Positions 2,846-10,686 of a DNA stretch of 13,391 nt are shown here, in pieces (within the stretch, counting starts at the first letter, position 1; every line of letters begins with the position of its first letter). Both the position numbers and the translations under genes were made by a program. The stretch comes from Clostridiales bacterium. GTDB taxonomy: Bacteria > Bacillota > Clostridia > Peptostreptococcales > T1SED10-28. The stretch lies in assembly GCA_007134725.1 (NCBI GenBank), contig SLKF01000293.1, forward strand, positions 1 through 13,391, written 5' to 3'. Below the pieces are notes generated by a model, which saw only the letters and a list, made by a program, of their open reading frames with translations, did not search any database and was not told the origin of the DNA.

Positions 2846-2889
2846 AACTATAAGATCTTACATTACTACTATAAGTTTACCTTATAGTT
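2846..2889. repeat. Three short arms able to form competing hairpins at the end of the repeat-protein gene
   Basis: AACTATAAG (2846-2854), ACTATAAG (2868-2875) and CTTATAGTT (2881-2889) are present. The last arm can pair with the middle one (8 bp, 5-nt loop) or with the first one (9 bp). The structure overlaps the stop codon of the minus-strand gene starting at 4072. No T-tract follows closely, so it is not a typical terminator. Confidence 0.4.
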
Positions 2890-4072
2890 CCAGCACACCC
2901 ATATTTGTAATTTTTGTATACTCAGGCTCTTCACCTTTTTCCGCTTTTTCTTCTTTTGCATTAAAGACACCATAATTTTCCGTGATTTTTTGACTGAGGA
3001 TTCCATAAATCTCTTTTGAGCATTGAATTTTACCGTAATTCTTAATTTTTTTAATGCCCTCTTCTATTTGTTCTCCCGTTAGTTCTTCTTTAAATTCCAA
3101 CACCCCATAGTTTTCAATTTCAATATTTACTCTTCCCTTCAGATAGTTTGAATCCACAACCAGATTCGAATAGTTTTCCCTGGTTTCCGGATTAAAGGTT
3201 CTAACCTCCATATCTCCGGCGAACTCCAGATAAGCTTGTCTTTCTCCTTCCGGTACATAAAGTTCTTTCCCTTTAATATCTTTAATACGTCCTTGAATTT
3301 TTTCAAAAGGAAGGTCAATTTTTAATTTGTATTTAACAAATATTCTTCGATCAGTAAACGTCGAAAGATTCTCATCACTAATCGTAAGCTTCTCATAATA
3401 ATCATAACCTTCAGGAACAATGGTCTTTGCCACCTCCGTATAGTTCTCAATTCTCGGAGCAATCCATCGCAAGTTGTTTTTCGTTGTAATGAGCTCCTTA
3501 AGAATAACCATTTTTTCAATCTTTTCTTCAACCAGTGGTTGATCTACTGCACCTAAAATTCTTAATGAAGACAGAACAATTTTGCTTTGATCCTTTAAAC
3601 CAAAAAGATTTTCTTCCTGTAGATTGAAATCTCCTTTCAGATAAACAAACCCTTCAGGATAGGTTAACACTTCTCCGTTGATTTTCAGACGGTCACTTAA
3701 TACCCCATAAACTTTTTCCGGTGCAATCATCTGTCCGTTTAGTAGGATTCCCTCAATTTTACCCAGTAGGTCCGGTGGAATTTCTTCAATCAAAATACTG
3801 CCGTTAAGAATAAAAAATATTTCCTTCTCCGAATCTTCAAGATAACTTTTTTTAATTTCCAGTTCTCCATTTCTGATTACCACTCCGATGTCTTTCGATC
3901 CGTCGATCACAGCCTGATCTCCGATATTTTCCATTTCAATATGAGCTATTTTTTCAGTTTGATCCTTCCCGGTAATTAGCAGTCCGATATTTTCCAACTT
4001 ATGAATTTCTTCCAAGGCCTCGTTATTTGCTTTTACTAAATTTAATACGCCGATATTTTGATAAATTTTCAT
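2882..4072 (-). CDS. Soluble repeat-rich protein encoded behind an ECF sigma factor (396 aa)
   Basis: No family recognised. The protein is built of short beta-prone units with an N/I-x-G-V/I-L core: QNIGVLNL and ENIGLLIT near the N-terminus, a middle part with 'NGSILI', 'YGVLSDRLKINGEVL' and 'EGFVYLKGDF' strands, and at the C-terminus ENYGVLEF (about 320), KNYGKIQC (344), EIYGILSQ (354), ENYGVFNA (365) and TNMGVLEL (389). This pattern suggests a beta-solenoid or bactofilin-like fold. There is no signal peptide, membrane helix or zinc-binding anti-sigma motif. The ATG at 4072 has AAGGAG 9 nt upstream; an ATG at 4105 has no ribosome binding site. It lies 107 bp behind the ECF sigma gene on the same strand, where an anti-sigma factor or target gene usually sits. 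Its role as sigma partner or target is inference. Confidence 0.7.
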   Translation of the reverse strand: MKIYQNIGVLNLVKANNEALEEIHKLENIGLLITGKDQTEKIAHIEMENIGDQAVIDGSKDIGVVIRNGELEIKKSYLEDSEKEIFFILNGSILIEEIPPDLLGKIEGILLNGQMIAPEKVYGVLSDRLKINGEVLTYPEGFVYLKGDFNLQEENLFGLKDQSKIVLSSLRILGAVDQPLVEEKIEKMVILKELITTKNNLRWIAPRIENYTEVAKTIVPEGYDYYEKLTISDENLSTFTDRRIFVKYKLKIDLPFEKIQGRIKDIKGKELYVPEGERQAYLEFAGDMEVRTFNPETRENYSNLVVDSNYLKGRVNIEIENYGVLEFKEELTGEQIEEGIKKIKNYGKIQCSKEIYGILSQKITENYGVFNAKEEKAEKGEEPEYTKITNMGVLEL

Positions 4073-4179
4073 TTTTAATCGCTCCTTTTTTATTATTTTT
4101 TTCATTTTTTTAATTTACGACTCAATCAATTGTTATTCTGATTTGCTTTTAATGGATTTATCCTTCCTTCTTAATGGTT

Positions 4180-4674
4180 CTAAATTTTTTTCTCTTTAAT
4201 CAACAGGGTTTGCACCTTAGCGAGGCGGGATCGAAGGGTTGAAGGGTTTATCCCGAGAATTTCTGATATTTCCCGTGTGTTATAATCTAGAAAATACCGA
4301 TAAATAACCAAAGTCTTTAAGTCTTTTGGCAGTTTTCCCAATACTTCTTTTACCTCCATTCTTTCAAGCACTTTTTTTTCAAGGGAAGGGTTTCCCATAG
4401 GGTCCGAAAGGGTTTCCAGCATTTGTTGGTTGAAGGGTACCCGTTGAAAACATTTAGATCTTCGATACTGATCAATAAACTGATTTTTAATGGCGGTAAA
4501 AAACCATCCCTTAATCTGTTCTGCTTCCATAACCTCAAAGAGTCCCAGATGGTGAATGGCTTTTACATAAGTTTGCTGTACCAAATCCTCCGCCTCTTCC
4601 CTATGACGGGTAAGACTTAGAGCAAATCGAAAAAAATCCTCTCCCTGATGATGGTATATTTCAAACAGTTTCAT
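4180..4674 (-). CDS. ECF-type RNA polymerase sigma factor (164 aa)
   Basis: An extracytoplasmic-function sigma-70 factor that directs RNA polymerase to a small regulon. Region 2 spans about 7-75, with EAEDLVQQTYVKAI (27-40) for core binding and IKGWFFTAIKNQFIDQYRR (54-72) for -10 recognition. Region 4 spans about 105-158, with the helix-turn-helix at 133-155 (TREISEILGINPSTLRSRL). Region 3 is absent and the length is normal for the group. The start has AAAGGGAG 7 nt upstream. The gene heads a probable two-gene unit with the repeat protein. No transmembrane anti-sigma factor is next to it, which is unusual. Confidence 0.92.
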   Translation of the reverse strand: MKLFEIYHHQGEDFFRFALSLTRHREEAEDLVQQTYVKAIHHLGLFEVMEAEQIKGWFFTAIKNQFIDQYRRSKCFQRVPFNQQMLETLSDPMGNPSLEKKVLERMEVKEVLGKLPKDLKTLVIYRYFLDYNTREISEILGINPSTLRSRLAKVQTLLIKEKKI

Positions 4675-4842: not shown

Positions 4843-5301
4843 CTAATTCTCTATCAACCCCAAAATTTCTTGGTTTTCGGGAATATCCTTCATGGAATGC
4901 CCATAGTGAATATAGCGTAGAACTCCTTCTTTATTAATAATCATTTGTGCGGGCATGCGGCCTAATTTAAAAATTTTCATCTCCTGTCCGTAAAGATTTA
5001 ATACCTCGCCATTTGGATCCGGCAGTCCATAAAATTTGAAGTTGTGTTCTTCAAAATAGCTTTTGAACTTTCCCTGTTTCTCCGGTCCAACAGCCACAAT
5101 TACGGTATCTTTTTCTTGAAACTTGTCATAGTCTTGATGCAACTGCATCATATGCTTTTGGCAGAAGGGTCACATAAACCCTCTATTCAGTACCAATAAT
5201 ACATTTTTTTCTCCCTTAAAGTCGGAAAGTTTAAAGCTTTTTCCTTGATAGTCTTCCAACTCAAAATCCAGTGCAGTTTTATTAATCTCAACTTTACCCA
5301 T
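4843..5301 (-). CDS. Selenocysteine-containing peroxiredoxin-like protein (AhpC/TSA fold, UxxC; 152 aa)
   Basis: A thioredoxin-fold peroxidase or disulfide-type oxidoreductase, cytoplasmic, likely reducing peroxides. The frame opens at ATG 5301 with AGGAGG 6 nt upstream and runs through one in-frame TGA (5170-5172, codon 44) to the stop at 4843. Around the TGA the sequence is VLNRGFM-U-PFCQKHMMQL. AhpC/TSA relatives have RGF-x-C-PFC here, so the TGA replaces the redox-active cysteine and C47 is the resolving partner in a UxxC motif. A SECIS-like hairpin follows at a suitable distance. The domain then continues normally (VIVAVGPEK, YGLPDPNGEV, RMPAQMIINKEGVLRYIHYG). The length of 152 aa fits the family, whereas the ATG at residue 51 would leave a protein without an active site. 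No other frame damage is seen, which argues against a pseudogene. It forms a single-gene unit bracketed by inverted palindromic repeats. UxxC selenoperoxiredoxins are known in amino-acid-fermenting Clostridia. Confidence 0.9.
5127..5154 (-). promoter_or_regulatory. Bacterial SECIS-like hairpin of the selenoprotein mRNA
   Basis: Inside the coding sequence, on the minus strand, GATGC and GCATC form a 5-bp stem around an AGTT loop (the loop contains the expected G-U). An outer CATA/TATG stem is separated by an asymmetric internal bulge. The loop G lies 27 nt after the UGA, within the 16-37 nt range known for SelB-recognised bacterial SECIS elements. Confidence 0.75.
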
Positions 5302-5387
5302 ATTTTTCCTCCTAATAATTTTTCTCTTTACAGATACTCAAATAGTTTTTCGCTTTTACAACTAATTTAAAATCCACCTTTGCTATA

Positions 5388-8860: not shown

Positions 8861-10417
8861 TTACATCCATGGAGCAAATAAACGAAGAACCGAACGTCCT
8901 AGTACTCTGACCCAAGAGGCACCGGTAACATCTTGAAAATTGATTTGATGGCATTTATCAAGGGTGCCAAAAAAGTCCTTCTTCATATCTGCCAATGAGG
9001 CTACTTCGTACATCCATACTCCGCACTCAAAGTGCAAATAAAGACTTCGATAATCCATATTGATGGTTCCTACCACACCATACTCCTGATCCACAAGAAA
9101 TGTTTTGGAATGGATAAATCCGGGAGTGTACTCGTAAATTTTCACCCCGCTATTAATAAGCATCCCAAAGTAAGACCTTGTAACCTTATGAACATACCAT
9201 TTATCCGGGATATGGGGAGTAATAATCCGAACATCAACACCGGACTTTGCTGCACTGGTAAGTGCGGTTAGCATTCCGTGATCCAAAATCAGATAGGGCG
9301 TGGTGATATAGATGGATTTCTTCGCTTTGGTGATCAGATTAAGATAGACATTTTCTCCGACGGTCTCCCCGTCCAGAGGACTATCAAAAAAAGGCTGCAC
9401 GATCCCCGGAGATTTTTGGAGGTTTTGTAACTGGACCGCGGAAAATTCGTACTGAAAGGGAAGAAAATCTTCCACTTCATCCCGTAAATAATCCCACAAA
9501 CTAAGAAACATCACCGTAAAGCTCCATACTCCAGCCCCTTCAATCATAATCGCAGAATCTTTCCAATGACCGTGTTTTTCATATTCATTGATGTATTCAT
9601 CCCCGATGTTGATACCTCCGGTAAAGCCCACTTTTCCGTCGATGACTGCAATTTTTCTATGATCCCGATTATTATGAAGAGAGGATATTACCGGAATCAC
9701 CGGGTTAAACACACAGGTTTTTATGCCCATGGCCTCTAAGGTCAAATGATAGTTTTTCGGCAAAGTCAGCATACAACCAACATCATCATAGATGATCCGA
9801 ACATCCACATTTTCTTTTACCTTCTGTTTCAAAACATCCAATATTTTATTCCAAAGCTTTCCCTCCGCAATGATAAAATACTCCAGGAATATAAACTTTT
9901 CCGCTTTTTTTAACTCCTCGACCAGCTTTTCAAACTTTTCCTCTCCGGTTGGTAAATAAAGGGTTTTTGTGTTTTGATAGGGAGGATAATTTCCGAAATC
10001 TCTGATATAACGAATTTGATTTGCGGCGTCCCGGTTGTTATCATCCAAGATTTTAAGGATGTCTTCATTTTTTGGTAAAACCTCATTGCTTTGTTCCATC
10101 AAATGACCCATCTTTCGTCGAGCATTACGACTGACCCGGTTTTGAGCAATTAATAGATAAAACAGACCTCCAAAAATGGGAAACAGGAGAATAGGAATGA
10201 CCCACACCAGTTTGTACTCCGGATGGATATGCTTATTGATAACCCAAACAACTACCGCTATACTCAGCAGGATGCTCAGCCCATAGAAAATCACAAAATA
10301 AGCTTGGAAACTCAATAGCACACCGATTATCAGTGCAATCTGCAATAAAAAGGCGATCAATAAATAGGTTACCCGATGAAACATTACTTTTTTAGTACCC
10401 TTAATTATTCCATGCAT
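8861..10417 (-). CDS. cls: Cardiolipin synthase (phospholipase D family, 518 aa)
   Basis: Condenses two phosphatidylglycerol molecules to cardiolipin and glycerol at the membrane. Three N-terminal hydrophobic segments (about 15-37, 41-60 and 70-91) anchor it. Two complete HKD motifs follow: HRKIAVID (H253, K255, D260) with FTGGINIGDEY, and HSKTFLVD (H436, K438, D443) with VGTINMDYRS. The C-terminus LRLFAPWM is typical of the family and the length is normal. The first of two overlapping ATGs is chosen because AAGGAG lies 6 nt upstream. An inverted repeat at 10451-10467 sits close to the start and could control it. The function is secure; assigning one particular paralogue is not possible. Confidence 0.95.
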   Translation of the reverse strand: MHGIIKGTKKVMFHRVTYLLIAFLLQIALIIGVLLSFQAYFVIFYGLSILLSIAVVVWVINKHIHPEYKLVWVIPILLFPIFGGLFYLLIAQNRVSRNARRKMGHLMEQSNEVLPKNEDILKILDDNNRDAANQIRYIRDFGNYPPYQNTKTLYLPTGEEKFEKLVEELKKAEKFIFLEYFIIAEGKLWNKILDVLKQKVKENVDVRIIYDDVGCMLTLPKNYHLTLEAMGIKTCVFNPVIPVISSLHNNRDHRKIAVIDGKVGFTGGINIGDEYINEYEKHGHWKDSAIMIEGAGVWSFTVMFLSLWDYLRDEVEDFLPFQYEFSAVQLQNLQKSPGIVQPFFDSPLDGETVGENVYLNLITKAKKSIYITTPYLILDHGMLTALTSAAKSGVDVRIITPHIPDKWYVHKVTRSYFGMLINSGVKIYEYTPGFIHSKTFLVDQEYGVVGTINMDYRSLYLHFECGVWMYEVASLADMKKDFFGTLDKCHQINFQDVTGASWVRVLGRSVLRLFAPWM

Positions 10418-10686
10418 GTTTTTCTCCTTAAGTAATTAAATTTAGATATCGTCATAATTCATATGACAATTCTATCTACAATGAAGTTCTGCGAAGGAAA
10501 ATATATTGATAAGAAGATTTTGAACATATCCAGTTGAGAGAGAACGATTGCTAGGTCTCTCTATCTCCAAACCTATACTTTCACCAATATATAGTTCTAT
10601 TTAACCATGATTTATCAATTATACCATTAATTTTATCAATTATAGCAATATTTGCAAGAATTTTCTCTTTCATTAACCTCAGAGAG
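10418..10686. other. Upstream region of cardiolipin synthase, AT-rich with repeats
   Basis: Holds a 17-bp inverted repeat (10451-10467), a hairpin AGAGAGA (10537-10543) with TCTCTCT (10556-10562), and a 13-bp direct repeat TTTATCAATTATA at 10611-10623 and 10632-10644. Each repeat unit carries a TATAAT on the minus strand, so transcription of cls may begin there. No clear -35 box was found. Confidence 0.45.
10451..10467. promoter_or_regulatory. Inverted repeat just upstream of cls, candidate operator
   Basis: GTCATA - ATTCA - TATGAC is a perfect 6-bp inverted repeat with a 5-bp spacer, centred about 42 bp before the cls start codon. No T-tract follows, so an operator is more likely than a terminator. 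Confidence 0.35.

Follow-up and report, generated by a model that had tools for sequence, protein, structure and literature searches.

The window, a stretch of 13,391 nucleotides from a Clostridiales bacterium (contig SLKF01000293.1), contains on its minus strand an open frame that is interrupted by a single TGA, which raises the question of whether this codon ends a protein, marks a decayed gene or is read as an amino acid. The frame runs from ATG 5301 to TAG 4843 and is 152 residues long; its single in-frame TGA is codon 44 (5170..5172, minus strand), in the sequence context RGFM-U-PFC. An AGGAGG ribosome binding site (5308..5313, minus strand) lies 6 nt upstream of the ATG. The initial annotation had described the frame, the site and the TGA in these terms, and reading of the sequence confirmed all of them. 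In the table-11 ORF list, the only product given for the 152-codon frame was a 102-residue piece starting at ATG 5151 (4843..5151, minus strand). The evidence presented below makes it very probable that UGA codon 44 is decoded as selenocysteine (Sec), yielding a selenoprotein of 152 residues (~17 kDa) with the thioredoxin fold of the AhpC/TSA superfamily.

Close relatives remain similar to the frame both before and after the TGA. In a comparison with an 82%-identical congener, codons 2-43 gave a dN of 0.147 and a dS of 1.13, and codons 45-152 gave a dN of 0.079 and a dS of 1.37, indicating from substitution rates that the codons upstream of the TGA are under purifying selection like those downstream; dS reached saturation, for at least one of the two parts of the gene, in four comparisons with more divergent sequences. 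Since the similarity spans both sides of the TGA and selection is apparent upstream of it, the frame is not a product of chance. Of 35 distinct relatives, counting the window, 22 showed a crude Shine-Dalgarno pattern ahead of the upstream start; for some of the other 13, the script had probably picked the wrong start codon. Codon 51, which in L034 and L035 is a codon other than ATG, was preceded by the pattern in 0 of the 35.

The TGA itself was found to be conserved. It was present at codon 44 in all 55 loci of at least 44% identity (45 of 45 close-family loci in an earlier tally), which come from Clostridia and Chloroflexota and amount to 36 distinct sequences, the window included, several loci being the same place taken twice. 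Eight more distant redoxins had Thr (six), Cys (one) or Ser (one, by a shifted alignment) at the position of codon 44. The combination that the initial annotation had named as counter-evidence, a sense codon other than Cys or Sec in close relatives together with frameshifts in this copy, was not seen, the close-family DNA giving TGA throughout and the frame being free of frameshifts. All four same-genus genomes (G001 to G004) carry the gene, each with exactly one TGA, and G005, the sole other genome of the family searched, gave no match to it. A class-wide search at an E value of 1e-25 matched 6 of 391 genomes, that of the window included, again with one TGA in each of the six, and a scan of GTDB species contigs yielded 24 loci which by their titles belong to Clostridia and related Bacillota, with two from Chloroflexota (L034 and L035). 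Carriers of the gene that are in culture include Fusibacter tunisiensis (L015), Soehngenia longivitae (L017) and Acetoanaerobium pronyense (L019). A further member, with the TGA at its codon 43, was located on a Thermomicrobium roseum plasmid (L101, NC_011961.1, 543865-547218) in a search of a plasmid collection that matched 29 records, the best 10 of which were listed, that of T. roseum being the one examined. The annotated T. roseum gene, TRD_RS15230, is a 42-residue "hypothetical protein" that stops at the conserved UGA, and the following ~110 codons have no listed gene. A scan of viral contigs for relatives of the gene found none.

Matches of other kinds were also noted. One locus (L052 and L036, G102:C23:7465-7692) is a degraded copy with two TGA and two TAG codons in 76 aligned codons, and a second, partial paralogue with one TGA and one TAA (G027:C51:3132-3506) lies ~2.5 kb downstream of a main copy. 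Four more distant AhpC/TSA matches (G166:C151, G049:C117, G085:C27 and G107:C3) have a single in-frame TGA each and are perhaps other Sec redoxins.

The short product is what gene callers return, as the initial annotation had anticipated for a standard caller when it predicted a 102-residue fragment without the active site: besides the piece in the ORF list, 69 of the best 120 of 474 matches in the first protein search had 112 residues or fewer, and none of these 69 contained the motif. That the TGA is a premature stop in a pseudogene, with this C-terminal piece or nothing as its working product, is scarcely credible despite the prevalence of entries of that size, given that the close relatives read share the TGA, that the codons upstream of it appear to be under purifying selection, that the frame has no frameshift, that the Shine-Dalgarno pattern is missing before codon 51, and that the piece would, in the structural model, lack the initial strands of the fold as well as its active-site turn.

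Among the matches listed, 66 homologues were full length, and these had Cys at position 44 in 9 cases and Trp in 57. The first search, in which the best 120 of 474 matches were listed, contributed 51 of them, of which 50 were aligned (48 W and 2 C) and one, P0065, fell outside the alignment and likewise had W; a second search added 15 (8 W and 7 C). The Cys entries, seen at the protein level only, are P0028, P0057, P0122, P0123, P0125-P0128 and P0156, and they supply the aligned Cys for which the initial annotation had proposed to look. The more numerous Trp entries invite the reading that UGA encodes Trp (code 4), in the lineage or at codon 44, and that the product is an ordinary redoxin with Trp in its sequence; four of these entries (P0046, P0048, P0050 and P0051) are on contigs of 9.8-19.5 kb, for which calling with code 4 is less expected. 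However, there is very little to recommend Trp once the DNA is considered. Entry P0005, which has W, is the translation of loci L016 and L095 except at its ends, and the codon in both loci is TGA, so Trp can arise from code-4 calling; the 103-residue entries P0066, P0074, P0090 and P0115 likewise match TGA-bearing loci. Apart from the four named above, the W entries of the first search (45 of 49) come from contigs shorter than 5 kb, and the nearest genome matches of P0046 (58-60% identity) carry TGA. TGG was found at codon 44 in none of the close-family DNA read (55 loci). In the window, the 14 main ORFs encode Trp by TGG (41 codons) and one of them terminates with TGA, their freedom from in-frame TGA being a consequence of how the ORF list is constructed, and several cover almost the full length of their Pfam domains with no need of TGA read-through. 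Trp at position 44 appears to be best explained as UGA called with code 4, the DNA basis for this being P0005, the 1 of the 57 W entries traced to DNA.

The reading of UGA as Sec is further supported by the RNA. Downstream of the UGA, the coding sequence contains a six-pair hairpin, UGAUGC[AGUU]GCAUCA (5135..5150, minus strand, within codons 51-56), separated from the UGA by a 19-nt spacer before the stem. The bSECIS rules in the accessible part of PMC13188914 specify G in the first two loop positions, a loop of 3-9 nt, a stem of 4-16 bp, a spacing of 16-37 nt and an MFE of -7.5 or lower. The window hairpin, with 25 nt from the UGA to the loop, a 4-nt loop with G second, a 6-bp stem and a 45-nt MFE of -8.4, fits the bSECIS model as published there. 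Across a set of 35 distinct family sequences plus T. roseum (36 in all), the loop-G rule held in 36 and the MFE rule for the first 45 nt in 35, and folding of the 45-mer preferred a competing fold in 7. For the window, the 63-nt region alone was not more stable than shuffles (z of -0.84; its stability was equalled or exceeded in 44 of 200), and an Rfam scan at gathering thresholds gave no match.

Covariation of the stem was clear in the same 36 sequences. Pairing was observed in 98.6% of 216 cells, with two-sided changes at three of the six pairs (10 cells); when the partners were slid by 1-3 bases, 17.6-64.4% of cells were paired and at most one had a two-sided change. Leaving out T. roseum, 98.6% of 210 cells were paired and the three covarying pairs remained (8 cells), with none in the slid controls. 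The covariation score was reached by 0 of 500 shuffles, a control which ignores relatedness. Broken pairs were confined to L035 (two) and L034 (one). The changes extend to the encoded residues: Met52-His55 (UGAUGC/GCAUCA) is replaced by Ala52-Arg55 (UGGCGC/GCGUCA, or UGGCGC/GCGCCA in T. roseum), and the two replacements, Met52 to Ala and His55 to Arg, co-occur as a compensating stem pair in L047, L051, L099, L100 and T. roseum. Where Arg55 occurs alone (L013 and L048), a U-G pair is kept in the stem. When 138 sites were ranked by synonymous conservation, codon 53 was first, codon 55 second and codon 54 third (tied with codon 47). Gln53 is CAG in 34 of 34 sequences, as against 70 of 154 elsewhere in the gene, and Leu54 is TTG in 35 of 36, whereas TTG makes up 71 of the 452 Leu codons in the rest of the gene. 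With the conserved TGA, the Cys homologues and this covarying hairpin, the selenoprotein reading put forward in the initial annotation is well supported.

That reading had also implied SelA, SelB, SelD and tRNA-Sec in the organism, and of these the SelD part was borne out in the window's own genome, a bin ~80% complete in 308 contigs. Its SelD (L091, G000:C201:4962-5882) scored above the cut-off and has an in-frame TGA in the active site (SSGUAGKIG), so it is likely a second Sec gene of this genome; SelD above the cut-off with one TGA was found in all six family genomes. This incomplete assembly yielded neither SelA nor tRNA-Sec, and no SelB above the cut-off of 242.25 bits; its best SelB match, which lies in a frame of 709 codons, scored 116.4 bits. 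The search for tRNA-Sec, in which 150 of 179 first-look candidates were scored, produced four candidates that were below the Rfam cut-off and were identified by ARAGORN as ordinary tRNA genes (Gly, Arg, Leu and His).

In the congeners G001, G002 and G004 (98-100% complete), selB and selA are neighbours, both above the cut-off, and a tRNA-Sec(tca) lies next to them; in G003 (63% complete), SelA and SelB were also not found at E values of 1e-30 and 1e-40. Contig C157 of the window's genome tracks the operon region of G001 and stops at base 10355 of it, ~170 bases before the tRNA-Sec begins at 10528. Past base 10355, two matches of 35-47 bases were listed in the window's assembly (40 of 88 first-look candidates scored). 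Because this syntenic contig breaks beside the sel operon, with the genes lying beyond the break in congeners, the absence of SelA, SelB and tRNA-Sec is most simply an assembly gap; incompleteness explains the absence and does not prove presence. Both Chloroflexota genomes with the gene have SelB above the cut-off, and no SelB was found for T. roseum on the plasmid, the only part of it searched. A close match bearing the TGA, counting partial and degraded ones, occurs in 21 genomes; SelA was found in 18 of these and SelB in 19, the misses (SelA in G000, G003 and G093; SelB in G000 and G003) falling in genomes of 63-88% completeness. The association between the family and the sel genes is statistically weak because sel genes are common across the order (SelA in 154 of 198 genomes).

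The function of the protein is a separate matter from its decoding. With Sec/Cys at position 44, the window protein matched AhpC-TSA (PF00578) at 81.3 bits (cut-off of 26; E value of 7.4e-23) over residues 6-131 and Redoxin (PF08534) at 60 bits over residues 7-138. The AF2 model, in which Cys was placed at 44, had a mean pLDDT of 93 and positioned residue 44 directly before helix 45-56, which is the active-site position of the thioredoxin fold. The best PDB match was the peroxiredoxin Bcp1 (3drn, TM of 0.87), with AhpC/Prx and ResA types behind. The partner of Sec44 in the UxxC motif (UPFC) is Cys47 (5161..5163, minus strand), which is invariant in alignments of 51 rows (A1) and 37 rows (A5).

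Canonical peroxiredoxins have a PxxxTxxC(U) site and a catalytic Arg. The Bcp1 match and the Pfam AhpC-TSA assignment would suit a canonical Sec peroxiredoxin in which Sec is the peroxidatic residue of such a site, a reading that concerns function and not Sec decoding, but we consider it unlikely. In the window protein, U44 takes the place of the Thr and Pro117 stands at the Arg position. Six PrxQ-type proteins of the same order, once aligned, have Thr at 44, Cys at 47 and Arg opposite Pro117, whereas the ResA-like L054 has CxxC and, as in the window protein, Pro at the 117 position. The likeness to PrxQ/BCP proteins such as Bcp1 is thus one of fold, with Cys47 aligned to the Cys of the PrxQ TPGC site, and the difference lies in Sec for Thr at 44 and Pro for Arg at 117. 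With ResA/TlpA proteins the window protein shares a C/UxxC motif where the active-site helix opens, together with Pro in the cis-Pro-like place, but it scores 58.2 against a ResA cut-off of 170 and has no membrane or signal segment by eye in its 152 residues; it is probably cytosolic. The "peroxiredoxin" label of the initial annotation was therefore corrected, since the PrxQ site has Thr at 44 and its TPGC Cys at Cys47, and UxxC is the Prx-like pattern: in the portion of PMC1088965 available, known Sec-peroxiredoxins have TxxU, and UXXC replaces TXXU in Prx-like selenoproteins. By its sequence, the window protein is of the Prx-like thiol:disulfide oxidoreductase kind (UxxC), an already known class, and is not a canonical peroxiredoxin (TxxU).

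The available part of PMC13188914 tables Prx-like thiol:disulfide oxidoreductases (UxxC/UxxU) under PF00578, with WP_010940744.1 as representative, and also a Redoxin family selenoprotein (PF08534, UxxC, HEU0032618.1). Going by these class descriptions, the window protein resembles the former in its PF00578 domain, in having UxxC for TxxU and in its predicted redox role, and resembles the latter in matching PF08534, but with PF00578 scoring higher. In the accessible part of PMC3091704, none of the eight selenoproteins in the C. sticklandii table is of AhpC/TSA type with Sec near position 44 in ~152 residues, the peroxiredoxin of that species having Sec at 84 of 240. No NCBIfam 20.0 (June 2026) model reached its cut-off on the window protein. 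The nearest, the SelL-related NF040769, gave 73.7 bits over residues 8-105 against a cut-off of 120, which leaves the protein outside that family, and the same model matched 37 of 37 members scanned at an E value of 0.001 or better. By the NCBIfam 20.0 cut-offs, the RGFxUP[FY]C branch appears to be uncurated.

Taking the protein as a Prx-like selenoprotein, we propose that UGA codon 44 would be read as Sec in translation under the direction of the stem-loop that lies within the gene; SelB and tRNA-Sec, whose genes were found in congeners and are presumed for the window's genome, would serve the insertion. Its most likely role would be that of a Prx-like thiol:disulfide oxidoreductase or a thioredoxin-dependent peroxidase, which is favoured because the Thr44 and Arg of PrxQ are absent here and the ResA-like L054 combines CxxC with Pro. 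In either case, Sec44 would attack the disulfide or peroxide substrate, Cys47 would resolve the Sec44 intermediate as a selenenylsulfide, and a thioredoxin-type reductant would regenerate the Sec44-Cys47 site. Such a catalytic cycle, suggested by the fold and the motif alone, seems reasonably probable.

Genomic neighbours were scanned for 68 of the 142 ORFs at 21 loci. MarR-type regulators accounted for 6 of the 68 and TM1586-type nitroreductases for 4, and no common partner gene was found among them (best 25 of 90 families). In the window, a protein of 407 residues that matched no Pfam family at an E value of 1e-5 (2882-4105, minus strand) adjoins a sigma-70-type (ECF-like) factor (4180-4674, minus strand).

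These data add a well-supported selenoprotein where databases mostly have a ~103-residue fragment without the active site, and where the alternative form of the gene carries a Trp that is probably false. As the protein stays below the cut-off of every NCBIfam model, the annotation error would persist. The finding is useful for annotation and ordinary in kind. On balance, we lean slightly towards the view that RGFxUP[FY]C proteins form a distinct, uncurated selenoprotein subfamily across Clostridia, Chloroflexota and Thermomicrobia, in most of whose Sec forms the segment MMQLHQ or MAQLRQ that follows the active site is set by the SECIS hairpin and not by the protein. If this is true, the Cys forms, being free of the hairpin, should lose the constraint on this segment. 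The coding sequence, serving at the same time as a covarying SECIS hairpin, is a clean case of RNA constraining protein sequence.
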